Assembly: GCF_017309385.1 (NCBI RefSeq)
Contig: NZ_JAFJMJ010000001.1
Span: 2,914,001-2,978,000, forward strand
DNA: 64,000 bases
DNA from: Amycolatopsis sp. 195334CR
GTDB taxonomy: Bacteria > Actinomycetota > Actinomycetes > Mycobacteriales > Pseudonocardiaceae
Direction of reading: 5' to 3'
A program made the translations under genes and the position numbers. The notes beneath the pieces were generated by a model. It searched no databases and was not told the DNA's origin. It saw only the letters and a list, made by a program, of their open reading frames with translations. Every line of letters begins with the position of its first letter. Within the stretch, counting starts at the first letter, position 1. Shown here piece after piece: positions 14,673-23,279 of the stretch.

Positions 14673-14713
14673 GGCCCGTCACCATCCGCAGCGGACGCCA
14701 CTAGCCTGGTCGC

Positions 14714-15265
14714 GTGACCACCTGGACCATCGCCGGTTCCCTTTCGGTCGAACCGGCCACGCAGCGCACCGATCTGCTCGCCGAGCCCGTGGCCAAGGCA
14801 CTGGCCGCCATCGAGCACGAGGTGGGCGTCGCCTCGATCGATCCCGAACTCGCCGACACGGCCGCCTTCTGCGAGGCCTACGGCTCCCCGCTCGCCGCTT
14901 CCGCCAACTGCGTGGTGGTCTCGGGCAAGCGCGCCGGCGAGGTCCGCTACGCCGCGGCCATGGTGCTCGCCACCACTCGCGCAGACGTGAACAACGTGAT
15001 CAAGCGGCGGCTCGACGTTCGCAAGGCGAGCTTCGCGCCGATGGCCGAGGCGGTGGAGCTGACCGGGATGGAGTACGGCGGCATCACCCCGGTCGGGCTG
15101 CCCGAGGGCTGGCCGATCCTGGTGGACAAGGCCGTGGCCGAGGCACCCGAGCTGGTGATCGGCAGCGGCGTCCGCGGCAGCAAGCTGCTCGTCTCGGGGG
15201 CGCTGCTGGCGTCGCTGCCCGGCGCGGAGGTCATCGAGGACCTCGGCAAACCGGTAGCAGGCTGA
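14714..15265 (+). CDS. YbaK/EbsC-family aminoacyl-tRNA deacylase-like protein, copy 1
   Basis: The 183-residue protein has the YbaK/ProX fold: a conserved KR-GE-RYAAAMVLATTR strand region, the IKRRLDVRKASFAPMAEA segment carrying the basic patch, and GGITPVGLPEGWPILVD near residue 122 that lines the pocket. Family members hydrolyse mischarged tRNA (such as Cys- or Ala-tRNAPro) in trans. It is about 80% identical, by eye, to the next gene. GTG 14714 has TAGCCT at 14702-14707 six bases upstream, a leaderless arrangement repeated in copy 2. DUF2516 ends 41 bases upstream. Confidence 0.82.
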   Translation: MTTWTIAGSLSVEPATQRTDLLAEPVAKALAAIEHEVGVASIDPELADTAAFCEAYGSPLAASANCVVVSGKRAGEVRYAAAMVLATTRADVNNVIKRRLDVRKASFAPMAEAVELTGMEYGGITPVGLPEGWPILVDKAVAEAPELVIGSGVRGSKLLVSGALLASLPGAEVIEDLGKPVAG

Positions 15266-15339
15266 CCCGCCGCTTTCCCCCGCGAAACCTGGATCCGCTG
15301 ATATACCTGCGGTATTTCCGGCGTGGCTAGCTTGGCGCG

Positions 15340-15876
15340 GTGACCCGCACTTGGACCATCGCCGGTTCCCTCACCGTCGAACCGGCCATCGAGCGCACCG
15401 AACTCCTCGCCGACCCCGTCGCCAAGGCGCTGACCGAGCTCGAGGGCGAGGTGGGCGTCGCGGAGATCGACCCCGGCCTCGCCGACACCGCGGCCCTCTG
15501 CGCCGCCTACTCCTTCCCGCTGTCCGCCGCCGCCAACTGCGTGGTGCTCTCCGGCAAGCGCACCGGGGAGGTTCGCTACGCTGCGGCGATGGTGCTCGCC
15601 ACGACCCGCGTGAACAACGCGATCAAGCGCCGGATCGACGTGCGCAAGATCAGCTTCGCGCCGATGGCCGAGGCGGTGGAGCTGACCGGGATGGAGTACG
15701 GCGGCATCACCCCGATCGGCCTGCCCGGCGACTGGCCGATCCTGGTGGACAAGGCCGTGGCCGAGGCGCCCGAGCTGGTGCTCGGCAGCGGGATCCGGGG
15801 TAGCAAGCTGCTGGTCTCCGGGGCCTTGGTGGCCTCGCTGCCGGGCGCGGAAGTGGTGGAGGGCTTGGGCAGGTGA
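15340..15876 (+). CDS. YbaK/EbsC-family aminoacyl-tRNA deacylase-like protein, copy 2
   Basis: This 178-residue paralogue of the preceding gene shares the same TWTIAGSL start, the RYAAAMVLATTR segment and GGITPIGLP pocket strand; a two-residue deletion follows ATTR and the C-terminus is shorter. TAGCTT at 15328-15333 stands six bases before GTG 15340, the same promoter layout as copy 1, so the duplication probably included the promoter. Its stop overlaps the start of the cyclodeaminase gene (GTGA at 15873-15876), tying this copy to the downstream operon. Confidence 0.82.
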   Translation: MTRTWTIAGSLTVEPAIERTELLADPVAKALTELEGEVGVAEIDPGLADTAALCAAYSFPLSAAANCVVLSGKRTGEVRYAAAMVLATTRVNNAIKRRIDVRKISFAPMAEAVELTGMEYGGITPIGLPGDWPILVDKAVAEAPELVLGSGIRGSKLLVSGALVASLPGAEVVEGLGR

Positions 15877-16880
15877 CCTCGGTCTGGCTGCGGTACCTCA
15901 ACGCCGCCGATATCGACTCCCTCGGCGTGACCGGCGCGGACATCGTCGGCGCGGTCGAGGACGTGCTCGTCGACCACGGCCACGACCGCGTGGTCTTCGA
16001 GCCGCGCACGCACCTGGTGCCGGACAACGGCGGCAAGGGCCACTTCAACGTGCTGCGCGGGCACCTGTCCTCGCAGCAGGTCAGCGGGGTCAAGGTGGTC
16101 GGCGACTTCGTCACCAACTTCGAGCGCGGCCTGCCCAGCGAGATGGCGCTGATCCTGCTGCTCGACCCGGACACCGGCATGCCGAAGGCCATCGTGGACG
16201 GCACGATGATCACCGACGCGCGCACCGGCGCGATGACCGCGGTCGGCGCGAAGTACCTGGCGCGCCGGGATTCCCGCGTGCTGGGACACATCGGCGCGCG
16301 GGGTACCGCGTGGTGGAACGTGGTGCTGCTGGACTCGCTGTTCGACTTCGCCGAGATCCGGGTGACCAGCAAGCGGCCGGAGTCGCGGGAGGCGTTCGGG
16401 GCGAAGCTGAGCGAGCACCTCGGCAAGCCGGTGCGGGTGCTCGACAACGCCGCGGACACCCTGGACGGCGCCGACATCATGGTCGAGGCGTCCCGGCTGG
16501 TCGAGCCGGAAGCGCTGGTGCGCAAGGAGTTCCTGCGGCCGGGCAGCTTCCTGGTGCCCTACGGCACGATCAGCGCGCTGGAACTGGACCTGCTCGACGC
16601 GATCGACAAGGTCGTGGTGGACAACTGGCGTGAATCCCGGTCGGGCAACCCGAAGTTCGGCGCGCTGCGGCCGCAGCTCAACGCCGGACTGCTCACCGAG
16701 GACCGGGTGCACGCCGAAATCGGTGAGGTGGTCGCGGGCAAGCGCCCGGGCCGGGAAGGCGACGACGAGCGCATCCTCTTCTGGCATCGTGGACTGTCCA
16801 CAACGGACCTGTCGGTGGCGAACATGATCCTCAAGCGGGCCGAGGCGGCCGACGTCGGCACCATGCTGCCCTACCGATGA
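15873..16880 (+). CDS. Ornithine cyclodeaminase/mu-crystallin family protein
   Basis: A 335-residue NAD(P)-dependent enzyme of the OCD/mu-crystallin family: substrate-side residues in RTHLVPDNGG (near 45) and GVKVVGDFVTNFERGLPS (near 72-90), the LLLDPDTGMPKAIVDGTMIT hinge near 96-115, TGAMTAVGAKYLAR and the Rossmann glycine loop GHIGARGT near 137. Members convert ornithine to proline with loss of ammonia, or reduce or dehydrogenate cyclic imino acids and amino acids; which applies here is not visible. The gene overlaps both neighbours by four bases (GTGA and ATGA), so it is translated together with the YbaK copy and the lyase-like gene. Confidence 0.85.
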   Translation: MTSVWLRYLNAADIDSLGVTGADIVGAVEDVLVDHGHDRVVFEPRTHLVPDNGGKGHFNVLRGHLSSQQVSGVKVVGDFVTNFERGLPSEMALILLLDPDTGMPKAIVDGTMITDARTGAMTAVGAKYLARRDSRVLGHIGARGTAWWNVVLLDSLFDFAEIRVTSKRPESREAFGAKLSEHLGKPVRVLDNAADTLDGADIMVEASRLVEPEALVRKEFLRPGSFLVPYGTISALELDLLDAIDKVVVDNWRESRSGNPKFGALRPQLNAGLLTEDRVHAEIGEVVAGKRPGREGDDERILFWHRGLSTTDLSVANMILKRAEAADVGTMLPYR

Positions 16881-18184
16881 TCACCGCGCCCGAAGACCTC
16901 GACGCCGCCGCGATCGTCGCGGTGGCGGAAGGAAAGCACGTCGAACTGGCGCCGGGGTTGCTGGCCTCGCTGGCGGCGAACCGGGCCGCGGTGCTCGACG
17001 CGCTGACCGCCGCCGCGCGTCCCGTCTACGGCGTGAACACCGGCATGGGGCGCATGGTGGACGTGGTGCTGTCGGCCGAGGAACAGGCCGGGCACCAGCG
17101 CCGCCTGCTGATCGGACGGGCCGTCGGCGGACCGCCGTGGTTGCCGGAACGCGATGTCCGCGCGCTGTTCGCCGTACGCCTGCGCGGAATGCTGCTGCCG
17201 TCCACCGGCGCGAGCGCGGAAGCGGTGGAGTTCCTGGTGGACCGGCTCGGCGACGGGTTCGTCCCGGCCGTACCGCGTGACGGAATCGGCAGCGCGGGCG
17301 AGATCCTGCCGCTGAGCCACGCGTTCCAGACGTTCGTCGGGATCGGACGGATGCTCGACGGCCAGTCCGCCGTGGACGCGCTTGCGGAGCGTGGGGTCCA
17401 GCCGTACCAGCCGGGGCCGAAGGAGGGGCTGACCTTCATCCAGGGCACCCCGATCGCGATCACGCACGCGATTCTCCGTGGCGCGGAAGCAAACCAGGTG
17501 GTGGACCGGTTCGCGGCGGCGGAGTTCCCGGTCAAACCGGGGACCGTGCAGCCGCCGGTCTCGGCGCGGGTGGGCGCCCGCGCCACCGCGCACGCCCGCC
17601 GCGTGCTCGCCGAGTTGGCCGAGGAGGTCGAACGCGCGCTGGTGGTCACCGACTCGCCCGCCTTCCTGGACGGCGAGTTCGTCTCCACCGACGTGTTCCA
17701 CGGCTCGGACCTCGGGCTCCGGATGGACGCGGTGAGCGCGGCGCTCGCGCACCTCGGGGAGATCGGCGTCCAGCGACTGCACCGCCTGCTCGACGAGCGC
17801 TTCAGCGGGCTCAACCCGCAGCTGGCGGTGACCCCGGGACCGCAGACCGGCCTCACCCCGCTGCACAAGCGGGCGGTCGGGGAACTGCACGCACTGCGAC
17901 GGCTCGCCGCCCCCGCGACGCTCGGCTCGATCGACACCTCCAACGGTCAGGAGGACGTGCAAGCGTTTGCCTGTGCGGCCGGGGAGCAGTTGCGCGCGGC
18001 CGTCGAGCGGCTGCTGGTGATCACCGCGTGTGAGCACATCGGACTCGCGCAGGCGGCTTTCCTGCGGGGTGAACCGACCGGGCTGATCGACCCGCTGACC
18101 GAGGACCGGCCGCTCGGGCCGGAACTCGAAGCGCTGGTCAGGAAATGGTCGCCTTGGCGCGACTCGGCAGCTCGTTCCGCGTGA
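16877..18184 (+). CDS. Aromatic/histidine ammonia-lyase family protein with altered MIO motif
   Basis: The fold is that of the HAL/PAL family: YGVNTGMGR (around residues 50-58) with the catalytic Tyr, KEGLTFIQGT near 181, SNGQED near 355. However the tripeptide that must cyclise to the MIO electrophile is Ser-Ala-Gly (residues 139-141, GIGSAGEILPLSH) instead of Ala-Ser-Gly, so the serine that becomes dehydroalanine is absent, and the QDPYS tyrosine is also missing (QPPVSAR). At 435 residues it is shorter than HutH (about 510). A non-MIO lyase, mutase-like or binding role is more likely than histidine deamination. It overlaps the cyclodeaminase (ATGA) and converges on the permease gene with 47 bases overlap. 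Confidence 0.82.
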   Translation: MITAPEDLDAAAIVAVAEGKHVELAPGLLASLAANRAAVLDALTAAARPVYGVNTGMGRMVDVVLSAEEQAGHQRRLLIGRAVGGPPWLPERDVRALFAVRLRGMLLPSTGASAEAVEFLVDRLGDGFVPAVPRDGIGSAGEILPLSHAFQTFVGIGRMLDGQSAVDALAERGVQPYQPGPKEGLTFIQGTPIAITHAILRGAEANQVVDRFAAAEFPVKPGTVQPPVSARVGARATAHARRVLAELAEEVERALVVTDSPAFLDGEFVSTDVFHGSDLGLRMDAVSAALAHLGEIGVQRLHRLLDERFSGLNPQLAVTPGPQTGLTPLHKRAVGELHALRRLAAPATLGSIDTSNGQEDVQAFACAAGEQLRAAVERLLVITACEHIGLAQAAFLRGEPTGLIDPLTEDRPLGPELEALVRKWSPWRDSAARSA

Positions 18185-18872
18185 GCCGGAGCCCGCGCGG
18201 CACGGCGAACCGGGTGATCAGGGAGAACACGGCTTCGCAGACCAGCGCCAGCACGATCACCGCGATCCCGCCGCCGAGGATCTCGCCGTAACCACCGGCG
18301 CCCTGCGCGAACCCGTCGACGATGTAGCGGCCGAGGCCGCCGCCGTCGTTCACGATCGCGCCGATCGCGACGGTGGCCACCAGCTGCAGGAACGCCACGC
18401 GGGCACCGGCGAGCACCACCGGCAGCGCCAGCGGCAGTTCGATGCGCAGCATGATCTGGGTCTCGGTGTAGCCGGTGCCGCGTGCCGCGTCGACCGGGGC
18501 CTGGTCGAGCGTGGTCACGCCGGCGTAGGTGTTGGTGAACAGCGGTGGCAGGGCGAGCGCGACCAGCGCGATCAGCAACGGCCAGAAGGTGGTGTCGACC
18601 TCCCAGCGGCTGGCCAGGAACCAGAACAGGATGATCAGCCCGAAGCTCGGGATGGCCCGGCCGATGTTCACCGCGCTGGAGGCGAGGAAGGCGGCCTTGC
18701 GGTAGTGCGCGAGCCAGAGCGCGAGCGGGATGGTCAGCACCGCGGCGACGGCCAGCGACAGCAGCGAGAAGCCCAGGTGCTCGACGGTCCGGTACGGGAT
18801 GCCCGCCGAATCGGTGAAGCTCCAGCGGCCCGGCTGCCCGAGCCAGGCGGTGAGCTGGTCGAAGACGTTCAT
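18138..18872 (-). CDS. Osmoprotectant-type ABC transporter permease (OpuCB/YehY-like)
   Basis: A 244-residue permease with about six membrane helices and the cytoplasmic EAA loop (VDAARGTGYTETQIMLRIELPLALPVVLAG, here residues about 125-155, given in part). It belongs to the choline/glycine betaine uptake permeases. Its ATG at 18872 overlaps the stop of the other permease (18869-18872), so they are translated as a pair. The 3' end overlaps the lyase-like gene on the opposite strand by 47 bases. No ATPase gene is adjacent. Confidence 0.87.
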   Translation of the reverse strand: MNVFDQLTAWLGQPGRWSFTDSAGIPYRTVEHLGFSLLSLAVAAVLTIPLALWLAHYRKAAFLASSAVNIGRAIPSFGLIILFWFLASRWEVDTTFWPLLIALVALALPPLFTNTYAGVTTLDQAPVDAARGTGYTETQIMLRIELPLALPVVLAGARVAFLQLVATVAIGAIVNDGGGLGRYIVDGFAQGAGGYGEILGGGIAVIVLALVCEAVFSLITRFAVPRGLRLTRNELPSRAKATIS

Positions 18873-19552
18873 GCGCGGGCCTTCCGCGTCCAGGGCGCGA
18901 GTGCGCGTTCGCTCAGCCACAGCAGCAGGTCGACCAGCACGGCGAGCACGATGGACAGGCCGATGCCGACGATGATCGCGGTCGGGTTCGGCGTGGTGGT
19001 CTGGATGCCCTGGCGGATGAAGAAGCCGAGGCCGCCCATGCCGAGCATGGAGGTGACGGTGACCAGGCCGATGGTGGTCACCGCGGCCACCCGGAGCCCG
19101 GCGATGACCACCGGCAGCGCCAGCGGGAGCTCCACCTTGAACAACAGGTTCGCCCGGGTGAAGCCCATGCCGATGGCGGCTTCGCGGACTTCGGTCGGCA
19201 CCTGCTGCACGCCGGTGACGATGTTCCGGACCAGGATGAGCAGGGTGTAGGTGGCCAGCGGGATCACCGCGGTGGTGAACGACAGCCCGGTGAACGGCAC
19301 GAGCAGCGCGAAGGCGCCGAGGCTCGGGATGACGTACAGCGCGCCGGCCGTGCTCAGCGCGACCGGGTAGAACCAGCGCCAGCGCAGGGACAGCACGGCC
19401 AGGCCGATGGAGAGCACCAGCCCGATGCCGAGCGCGGTGGCGGTCAGCGAGAGGTGCTCGGTGAAGCGCGTGACGATGTTGTCCGCGTTGCGCTCGACCC
19501 AGCGCCATTCGAACAGGGGCCGATCGCTTTGAGTAGCGAAGGGGGCTCGCAC
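18869..19552 (-). CDS. Osmoprotectant-type ABC transporter permease (second subunit)
   Basis: A 227-residue permease paralogous to the preceding one, with the EAA loop VREAAIGMGFTRANLLFKVE near residues 122-141 and about six helices. Together the two form the membrane channel of a glycine betaine/proline/choline importer. GTG 19552 lies 130 bases from the divergent substrate-binding lipoprotein, which completes the uptake system except for the nucleotide-binding subunit. Confidence 0.87.
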   Translation of the reverse strand: MRAPFATQSDRPLFEWRWVERNADNIVTRFTEHLSLTATALGIGLVLSIGLAVLSLRWRWFYPVALSTAGALYVIPSLGAFALLVPFTGLSFTTAVIPLATYTLLILVRNIVTGVQQVPTEVREAAIGMGFTRANLLFKVELPLALPVVIAGLRVAAVTTIGLVTVTSMLGMGGLGFFIRQGIQTTTPNPTAIIVGIGLSIVLAVLVDLLLWLSERALAPWTRKARA

Positions 19553-19682
19553 CGCGTGAGCCTACCCCGGATGGACCTGGTGCTCCCGCGATTTGGGAAG
19601 CGGTCTCGGTCGTATCTCGGAATGTGGATGGATGTCGTGGCTCTTGGTTAGCGTTGCCACTCCCGGACGAAAGAGACTTCTC

Positions 19683-20591
19683 ATGCGCAGGACATTCCGA
19701 CTGGCCGCCGTACTGGCCGCCGCGACGCTCGGCCTGACCGCCTGCGGCGGCGGGGACACCGGCAGCACCGCCGAGAGCAAGGGCGGCGCACCGATCGTGC
19801 TCGCGTCCTTCAACTTCACCGACAGCACCATTCTCGCCGAGCTGTACGGCAACGCGCTGGAGGCGAAGGGCTACCCGGTCGAACGCAAGCTGAACCTCGG
19901 CTCGCGCGAGCTGATCTACCCGTCGCTGCAGAAGGGCGAGCTGCACTTCCTCCCCGAGTACCAGGGCGCGGCGATCGTGAACGGGTTCAACGAGACCGCG
20001 CCGAAGGACGCCGCCGCCGAGCACGCGAAGCTGACCGAGCTGTTCGCGCCGTCGAACATCGGGCTGCTGAACTACGCGCCCGCGGAGAACAAGAACACCT
20101 ACCTGGTGAAGGCGGACCTGGCGCAGTCGCAGGGGCTGGCGAAGATCAGCGACCTGAAGAAGCTGCCGAACGTGGTCGTCGCCGGTGGGCCGGAGTGCGA
20201 GAAGCGGTCGACCTGCTTCGCCGGCATCCGCGACACGTACGGGGTCAACGCCACCTTCCAGGCGGTGCAGGAGGCCGGGCCGCGGGTGGAGCAGCTGCGC
20301 TCGGGCGCGGTCACGGTGATCCCGGTCGACTCGGTGAACCCGCTGGTGGTGGACCCGGCGTTCAAGGCGCTGGAGGACGACCTGTCGATCGTGCCCACCG
20401 AGAACGTGGTGCCCGCGGTGGCGAAGAAGGTGCTCGACGAGCGCGGCCCGGACTTCGCCGCGGTGGTCAACGCGGTGAGCGCGAAGTTGACCACCGACGA
20501 GCTGCGGGGCCTGAACAAGCTCGTCGACTCCGACGGTGAACTGCCCGCCGACGTGGCCAAGGAATGGCTGACCAACCAGGGGTTGATCTAG
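19683..20591 (+). CDS. Glycine betaine/osmoprotectant ABC transporter substrate-binding lipoprotein
   Basis: The 302-residue protein has a lipoprotein signal with lipobox LTAC (Cys21) and the OpuAC-like fold: FNFTDSTILAELYGNALEAKGYPVERK near residue 42 (shown in part), LGSRELIYPSLQKGELHFLPEYQG near 78. The set of aromatic residues that cage quaternary ammonium groups cannot be confirmed from sequence alone. It diverges from the two permease genes, and the shared 130-base gap must contain both promoters. Import of betaine, proline betaine or choline is inferred. Confidence 0.86.
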   Translation: MRRTFRLAAVLAAATLGLTACGGGDTGSTAESKGGAPIVLASFNFTDSTILAELYGNALEAKGYPVERKLNLGSRELIYPSLQKGELHFLPEYQGAAIVNGFNETAPKDAAAEHAKLTELFAPSNIGLLNYAPAENKNTYLVKADLAQSQGLAKISDLKKLPNVVVAGGPECEKRSTCFAGIRDTYGVNATFQAVQEAGPRVEQLRSGAVTVIPVDSVNPLVVDPAFKALEDDLSIVPTENVVPAVAKKVLDERGPDFAAVVNAVSAKLTTDELRGLNKLVDSDGELPADVAKEWLTNQGLI

Positions 20592-22412: not shown

Positions 22413-23279
22413 TCAGAAGACGACGGTGCGGTTCCCGTGCACCAGCACGCGGTTCTCCAGGTGCCACCGCAGGCCCTTGGCCAGGGTGAACTTCTCGATG
22501 TCGCGGCCCTTCCGCACCATGTCGACCACCGAATCGCCGTGGCCGACGCGGATCACGTCCTGCTCGATGATGGGCCCGGCGTCGAGGTCCGCGGTGACGT
22601 AGTGGCAGGTCGCGCCCACCAGCTTCACGCCCCGCGTGTGCGCCTGGTGGTACGGCCGCGCGCCGATGAACGACGGCAGGAAGCTGTGGTGGATGTTCAG
22701 CGCCCGCCCGGCCCACGCTTCGCACAGTTCCGCGGGCAGGATCTGCATGAAGCGCGCCAGCACGACCGCGTGCGGGTCGTGCGAATCGACCAGCTCCCGG
22801 ACCTTGGCGAACGCCTCGGCCTTGCCGTCGGCCGGGAACGGCACGTGGTGGAACGGGATGCCGTGCGCCCTGGTGATGTCGCCGAGCGACTCGTGGTTGC
22901 CGATCACCGCGCTGACGTCGACGTCCAGCTCGCCGGAGGCGACCCGCCCGAGCAGGTCGTACAGGCAGTGCCCCTCCTTCGAGACGAGGATCACCACGCG
23001 CCGCCGCTCGGCGGAGTCGGCCACCGCCCAGTCCGTGTCGCTGCCCAGCGAGCGCGCCACCCCGGCGAACCGGGCGCGCAGCTCGTCGACGTCGAACGGG
23101 AGCGAGTCGGCCCGCACCTCCTGCCGGGTGAAGAACCAGCCGGTCTCCGGATCGGTGTGGTAGGCGGCCTCGACGATCCAGCCGCCCGCCTCGGCCAGGA
23201 AGGAGGCGATGCGCGCGACGATCCCGGTCCGGTCGGGACAGCCGAAGGTGATCACATATCTGCGTTCTGACGGTGGCAC
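22413..23279 (-). CDS. purU: Formyltetrahydrofolate deformylase
   Basis: PurU hydrolyses 10-formyl-THF to formate and THF. The 288 residues give an N-terminal ACT domain (about 8-85, FGCPDRTGIVARIASFLAEAG region) and a C-terminal formyltransferase-fold domain with NIHHSFLPSFIGARPYHQA near 196-214 and DAGPIIEQDV near 239, carrying the catalytic Asn, His and Asp. Length matches the family. The GTG start at 23279 lies within the end of the DedA gene (28-base overlap), so the two are probably co-transcribed. Confidence 0.92.
   Translation of the reverse strand: MPPSERRYVITFGCPDRTGIVARIASFLAEAGGWIVEAAYHTDPETGWFFTRQEVRADSLPFDVDELRARFAGVARSLGSDTDWAVADSAERRRVVILVSKEGHCLYDLLGRVASGELDVDVSAVIGNHESLGDITRAHGIPFHHVPFPADGKAEAFAKVRELVDSHDPHAVVLARFMQILPAELCEAWAGRALNIHHSFLPSFIGARPYHQAHTRGVKLVGATCHYVTADLDAGPIIEQDVIRVGHGDSVVDMVRKGRDIEKFTLAKGLRWHLENRVLVHGNRTVVF

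Follow-up and report, generated by a model that had tools for sequence, protein, structure and literature searches.

A pair of adjoining genes in a 64,000-nucleotide stretch of the Amycolatopsis sp. 195334CR genome (contig NZ_JAFJMJ010000001.1, positions 2,914,001 to 2,978,000; the whole stretch is called the window here) encodes a lyase with the histidine ammonia-lyase (HAL) fold and a protein with the ornithine cyclodeaminase (OCD) fold. The existence of a conserved lyase family that lacks the 4-methylideneimidazole-5-one (MIO) group and has a dedicated OCD partner is well supported. The two proteins, often with an OpuA-type importer, make up a module. Tentatively, at a probability of about 0.3, we propose that the MIO-free lyase and an NADP-type OCD protein degrade an imported N-methylated or thio-histidine, such as hercynine derived from ergothioneine, with urocanate entering histidine degradation below HutH. 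The same estimate covers this reading as a whole, namely an undescribed bacterial pathway that occurs in many Actinomycetota and in one Chloroflexi metagenome-assembled genome (MAG).

15873..16880, + strand: OCD-fold partner (PF02423, OCD_Mu_crystall), 335 amino acids, above the Pfam cut-off
16877..18184, + strand: predicted MIO-free HAL-fold lyase (PF00221, Lyase_aromatic), 435 amino acids, core of the module, above the Pfam cut-off

A lyase family without the MIO serine and its OCD partner

MIO is the textbook signature of the HAL/PAL lyase superfamily, and Tyr280 and His83 are catalytic in the MIO-dependent ammonia-lyases. An earlier reading of the window, made without database searches (the sequence-only reading), had noted that the MIO tripeptide of the lyase is Ser-Ala-Gly (S139-A140-G141) in place of Ala-Ser-Gly, and this is correct. 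To place the protein in its family, lyase loci were collected by a profile scan of named genomes, with the best 80 of 168 relatives kept. For gene calling in these loci a codon-usage script of our own was used, and gene starts are therefore approximate. The 73 loci that clustered with the family were aligned with the window protein, and the 74 tripeptides read SAG in 44, SSG in 14, AAG in nine, CAG in four, and TAG, VAG, and NSG in one each, with no ASG. A pattern tally over 120 homologues, which are those listed among 1313 matches, misfired or missed on 16 and scored SAG 70 times, SSG 22, CAG six, AAG three, CSG three, and ASG never in the remaining 104. SAG is the commonest form across the family, which rules out a private mutation or sequencing error. 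Intact Ala-Ser-Gly, which the sequence-only reading had named, together with histidase activity, as telling against its proposal if found in homologues, turned up in a single further member (G270) during a later motif check. Another member (G013) carries Ser-Pro-Gly, and these two cases mean that the position of the MIO serine drifts. A comparison set of more distant PF00221 loci reads Ala-Ser-Gly-Asp in 14 of 16, the pattern having missed the other two.

The remainder of the active site is altered as well. With positions numbered by alignment to the histidase structure 1gkj, His83 is replaced by Arg and Tyr280 by Val, Leu, or Ile in all 74 proteins. The Arg283 and Glu414 positions are kept in all 74 and that of Tyr53 in 73, with one gap. 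The window protein also differs at position 195. Every aligned member has a Lys (K331 in the window) that aligns with Lys at chain position 383 of ergothionase (6s7j), a residue we take to be catalytic there, and this Lys is absent from the HALs compared. Among the replaced or kept residues of the window lyase (R81, V228, K331, and E359), R81, K331, and E359 are invariant in the family.

The window lyase is shorter than most relatives, with two internal gaps of about 38 and about 12 residues. Its two nearest relatives, G449 and G422, have the same short form, and dN/dS values in the window lineage (0.128 and 0.147) indicate purifying selection. For both reasons a decaying pseudogene can be ruled out. 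In a tree the family forms its own clade with support of 100/100, and ergothionase sits on a long branch of unsure place. From these comparisons it is well supported that the family keeps the HAL fold, is conserved, and is probably MIO-free in most members.

Two known enzymes frame this conclusion. Ergothionase, the ergothioneine trimethylamine-lyase of Treponema denticola, lacks MIO too (PMC13405746); for the window lyase the same is read from sequence alone. The MIO loop of ergothionase is one residue shorter and its His at position 83 is kept, whereas the window loop retains all three residues and has Arg at 83. HutH (TIGR01225; 1gkj and others) has the same PF00221 fold and the same residues at the Tyr53, Arg283, and Glu414 positions, but the window lyase departs from it at the MIO serine, Tyr280, and His83, and scores 181.6 bits against the TIGR01225 cut-off of 539.15. 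Public names for such genes are histidine ammonia-lyase or aromatic amino acid lyase, so many of these annotations are probably wrong.

Changes of a similar kind are found in the partner. The predicted structure of the OCD protein is a confident model of the standard fold. Its GxGxxA dinucleotide motif is replaced by GARGTA, both in the window protein and in each of the 15 rows listed of 48 aligned proteins. The aligned family also has a loop VPYGT[IV]SA, of which PYGT[IV]SA aligns, with a two-residue gap, at the region of the GxD loop that in ornithine cyclodeaminase presumably holds the catalytic Asp. Across 23 OCD sequences G141, R143, G144, A146, and V228 to T232 do not vary, and A142 and T145 hardly do. 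The stretch TS-RPESRE suggests that the protein is of the NADP type. Relatives of the same fold are amino-acid or imine dehydrogenases and reductases, including pyrroline-2-carboxylate reductase (6t3e), archaeal alanine dehydrogenase (1omo), and SbnB. They have the PF02423 fold in common with the window protein, which is set apart by GARGTA and the PYGT[IV]SA loop. It falls below the cut-offs of all 13 NCBIfam models listed, every cyclodeaminase and proline-type model included. Judged by these motifs, it is a distinct subfamily. A conserved family that has the HAL fold and is without the MIO serine and the catalytic Tyr and His, matched by changes in its partner, offers a concrete system for MIO-free chemistry.

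The two genes travel together. In a phylum sample of 396 Actinomycetota genomes, many of them drafts, the OCD gene occurs in 13, the lyase in at least 15, and both in 12 (Fisher p 2e-19, kinship ignored). The lyase count comes from the matches listed, with at most three candidates scored per genome: 11 exceed 400 bits, and four with split or partial matches (G000, G013, G028, and G200) were checked by motif; fragments elsewhere could be missed. G161, the one OCD genome of the 13 without this lyase, has an ergothionase-like lyase instead; it stands directly 3' of the OCD gene and shows the short loop, Val280, the Lys, and the Arg. Among 80 Amycolatopsis genomes the lyase (E 1e-60) is present in 68 and the OCD gene in 42, all 42 of which have the lyase; since the other 26 lyase genomes lack the OCD gene, the lyase can act without it. 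The OCD protein was found only alongside a lyase of the ergothionase-like or MIO-free kind.

At the level of gene order, the OCD gene lies directly upstream of the lyase in 49 of 80 loci: 17 of 39 in Amycolatopsis, 15 of 16 in Kribbella, and 17 of 25 others, which include Rubrobacter and one Chloroflexi MAG. The rule used misses locus L082, where an OCD gene is present. The possibility that the neighborhood is not conserved, raised by the sequence-only reading as a point that would count against it, is thereby refuted. Its suggestion of an unrecognised pathway survives in part: the OCD-lyase pair is conserved, and no description of a MIO-less lyase paired with an OCD protein was found in the open-licence literature searched. 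The proline and tRNA aspects of that suggestion did not hold, as discussed below. Two oddities were seen in these loci. The OCD frame of G111 (L144:9543-11762, - strand) came out at 739 residues, which may reflect a fusion or an artefact of start calling, and PF00221 genes near OCD genes at L143:10625-12142, L061:16817-18337, and L067:15835-17268 read A-S-D or V-S-D, without the tripeptide Gly of A-S-G-D.

Importer, histidine degradation, and sulfur genes near the module

An osmolyte importer had been reported beside the pair, and an OpuAC-type binding protein with two permeases does adjoin it:

18180..18872, - strand: importer permease 1 (PF00528, by Pfam), adjoining the lyase in other loci too
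18869..19552, - strand: importer permease 2 (PF00528, by Pfam), adjoining the lyase in other loci too
19671..20591, + strand: OpuAC-type substrate-binding protein (PF04069) with altered pocket; start approximate

The association of an OpuA-type importer with the lyase module is recurrent and supported. OpuAC is found in 45 of 80 lyase loci (34 of 39 in Amycolatopsis and 11 of 41 elsewhere). Sixteen genomes of the phylum sample have the OCD gene or the lyase, and OpuA adjoins in 12 of the 14 whose context was seen, the exceptions being G221 and G111. No gene matching either of two query importer ATPases was found in the window or in the 20-kb loci of two relatives; the best match in the window genome is 64% identical and lies 1.6 Mb away (G000:C1:1267136).

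The OpuAC protein matches EgtUC chains in sequence. Ergothioneine binding of the EgtU type is described as an aromatic cage of F293, Y341, Y419, and Y443 together with N339 (PMC9732360). The window protein resembles EgtU in its PF04069 fold and in E375 and R379, which are kept in the window and the aligned Amycolatopsis rows, but Tyr419 is Asp and Tyr443 is Glu in the window and all 33 Amycolatopsis rows. In family rows beyond the window, the first of these positions holds F, D, or Y and the second E or Q, with a single D. Near Y341 the alignment is unsure, phmmer and MAFFT being two residues apart. The altered pocket residues weaken the case for a plain trimethyl-betaine importer. As a separate observation, a set resembling carnitine degradation (thioesterase, hydroxyacyl dehydrogenase, BKACE, and BCCT transporter), recognised by eye, lies downstream of OpuA-OCD-lyase in a Pseudonocardiaceae MAG (L040:11456-16452).

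Genes of histidine degradation (hut) adjoin the module in six of at least 15 lyase genomes, drawn from two families (G118, G070, G017, G221, G205, and G200). In G118, the genes hutU, M20 hydrolase, hutF, hutI, and OpuA follow one another on one strand. The genes they face are the lyase and an exporter resembling YeiH (below its cut-off), beyond which lie a gene we take to be DUF2294-like and cupin, rhodanese-like, and second-lyase genes. No hutH is adjacent to this hut block, and another PF00221 gene lies elsewhere in the genome. All 14 genomes searched have a single copy of hutU, and in G118, G070, G017, and G221 it is no more than 2 kb away from the lyase. hutF, hutI, or both, identified by their similarity to those of G118, lie next to the OCD, importer, or lyase genes in G205, G070, G017, G200, and G118. 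In the window genome a canonical hutH-hutU-M20-hutF-hutI block is found at another place.

Clusters in Actinoplanes, Paractinoplanes, and Arthrobacter add genes with a possible tie to sulfur. They hold an RpiR regulator, OCD, lyase, a LacI regulator, an amidohydrolase-like gene (family c8, without a Pfam match), a cupin, a second MIO-less lyase, and OpuA, in an order that varies through local gaps and rearrangements. The cupin of locus L077, which lies beside the amidohydrolase-like gene, is 65% identical to PDB 8qfl. We take 8qfl to be an ergothioneine dioxygenase; its structure file says cysteine dioxygenase. An actinobacterial ergothioneine dioxygenase with a desulfinase was reportedly described in Angew. 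Chem. in 2024; if 8qfl is that enzyme, the Actinoplanes and Arthrobacter clusters carry a cupin like it. In the second PF00221 family (c10) the MIO loop is shorter by one residue, as in ergothionase, and reads GTAD or GTGD:

L077:14405-15844: c10 second lyase
L209:5685-7139: c10 second lyase
L212:9550-10992: c10 second lyase

It occurs in 12 of 396 genomes, including the window genome (G000:C3:1042552). A strong link between c10 and the lyase family was ruled out, as the 12 genomes with c10 and the 15 with the lyase have just two in common (p 0.07). EgtD-type PF10017 proteins are encoded in five of 16 genomes, the window's included, and in none of the six hut-linked ones.

Possible functions of the module

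In the proposed scheme, the importer would take up an N-modified histidine, with hercynine made from ergothioneine as the best guess. The lyase would then eliminate the amine without MIO, as ergothionase does, and the urocanate so formed would enter the hut pathway. The OCD protein, probably NADP-dependent, might act on an imine or N-methyl amine of this pathway; its step is the least certain part. Amine elimination from a histidine derivative is our best guess for the reaction, and hercynine is the leading but unproven substrate. Taken together, this reading, in which a C-N lyase that needs no MIO turns an imported N-modified histidine (perhaps hercynine) into urocanate for the hut pathway, has somewhat less than an even chance. 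If hercynine is indeed the substrate, ergothioneine breakdown would be connected with the histidine pathway in actinobacteria.

In favor of the scheme are the altered active site of the lyase family and its Lys in common with ergothionase, the close pairing with the OCD gene, the hut genes near the module, the 8qfl-like cupin of the Actinoplanes and Arthrobacter clusters, and the constraint on the lyase in the window lineage.

Several observations weigh against the hercynine scheme. The tree does not place ergothionase, whose position there is unsure, as the sister of the lyase family, and 15 of 74 members have Ser at the position of the MIO serine, with ASG in the further member G270. The importer pocket has lost most of the aromatic residues that cage trimethylammonium, and the role of the OCD protein is unexplained by a hercynine pathway. 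Only two families show the hut link, with none in the Amycolatopsis, Kribbella, Rubrobacter, or Actinoplanes loci. A HutH-type gene also lies beside hutU in G070, G017, and G221, so that the lyase is not a simple replacement for HutH. The window genome lacks a close 8qfl-type cupin (best 31 and 35%), and the cupins of the hut-linked genomes are 38-42% identical to that of Actinoplanes and could be cysteine dioxygenases of the ordinary kind.

As a second reading, likewise tentative, the module may degrade some other imported compound, an amine or amino acid whose amino group is free or secondary. The OCD protein would first oxidise it to an imine and the MIO-free lyase would eliminate or rearrange the product, the hut link reflecting no more than a shared product or regulon. 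This would suit the acidic or amide residues found where betaine binders have Tyr, the dehydrogenases and reductases among OCD-fold relatives, and the restriction of linked hut genes to two families. It sits less well with the ergothionase-like features of the lyase and with the lyase-bearing Amycolatopsis genomes that have no OCD gene (26 of 68), in which the OCD step cannot be an obligate first one. We consider it unlikely that both proteins are catalytically dead and serve the importer or regulators as sensors or scaffolds. Hallmark catalytic motifs are gone from both proteins, yet the replacements (R81, K331, and E359 in the lyase, the GARGTA region and PYGT in the OCD protein) are invariant, as expected of a changed active site, and G161 retains the OCD gene with a different, ergothionase-type lyase in place.

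Still less probable is that some members form MIO and are plain ammonia-lyases, with the SAG proteins as drifting paralogues. The serine in 15 of 74 members and the Ala-Ser-Gly of G270 would fit, but Ala takes the place of that serine in 59 of the 74 (the window lyase among them), no aligned member retains Tyr280 or His83, and the SAG form is under purifying selection. Least probable of all, and in our estimate very improbable, is the pathway favored by the sequence-only reading, in which a proline-like amino acid is synthesised or degraded and YbaK deacylases protect translation by clearing mischarged tRNA. YbaK adjoins the module in Amycolatopsis, and pyrroline-2-carboxylate reductase is an OCD-fold relative. 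Against this, YbaK is absent from all 41 lyase loci outside Amycolatopsis, in most Pseudonocardiaceae loci it stands beside DUF2516 with neither OCD nor lyase, and the OCD protein misses the proline-type cut-offs noted above. Nothing was found in favor of a proline-like substrate; the genomic context points to histidine degradation.

The YbaK genes and other features of the window

Upstream of the pair lie two YbaK genes, each preceded by a promoter-like box:

14702..14707, + strand: TAGCCT, -10-like box 5' of the GTG of YbaK copy 1; consensus match only
14714..15265, + strand: YbaK copy 1 (PF04073, Pfam tRNA_edit), above the Pfam cut-off; judged outside the module
15328..15333, + strand: TAGCTT, -10-like box 5' of the GTG of YbaK copy 2; consensus match only
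15340..15876, + strand: YbaK copy 2 (PF04073, Pfam tRNA_edit), above the Pfam cut-off; judged outside the module

All four + strand reading frames described by the sequence-only reading are thus present with their families above cut-off, and its four-base overlaps are confirmed at 15873-15876 (YbaK copy 2 and OCD) and 16877-16880 (OCD and lyase). Other parts of that description fared less well. The copies, called near-identical, match at 144 of 177 residues (81%) and at 84% of DNA positions. The matching leaderless promoters stand as boxes that end six bases before each GTG, consensus matches that would suit a leaderless -10 box; in G449 and G422, too, YbaK is preceded by TAGCCT.

Both of these nearest relatives have a single YbaK gene, directly 5' of OCD and a 97 and 93% match to copy 1, and neither has a counterpart of copy 2. 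Copy 2 evolves faster, with dN/dS of 0.285 and 0.290 versus 0.045 and 0.114 for copy 1. Neither copy meets the cut-off of NCBIfam TIGR00011, the YbaK Cys-tRNA(Pro) deacylase (40 and 34.7 bits against 153.25). Copy 1 has a match in 55 of 60 sampled genomes of the family Pseudonocardiaceae. Within about 1.5 kb on each side of YbaK in 30 such loci, DUF2516 is present in 28, and OCD or lyase in three, the window's own included, leaving 27 with neither. YbaK accompanies the lyase in all 39 Amycolatopsis loci. The DUF2516 association, mostly without OCD or lyase, marks YbaK as an old neighbor, and together with the single copy in the nearest relatives and its absence outside Amycolatopsis it rules out YbaK as a module part. 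The YbaK genes look like older neighbors of DUF2516 and probable bystanders to the OCD-lyase module.

The window genome (G000) measures 9.9 Mb, and its lyase is 94% identical to one named for Amycolatopsis lurida. Further along the window, at 22413-23279 on the - strand, an open reading frame was recognised by eye as resembling the formyltetrahydrofolate deformylase PurU, and a PurU-like relative lies near the lyase in 25 called loci (22 Amycolatopsis, two Actinoplanes, and one Chloroflexi).

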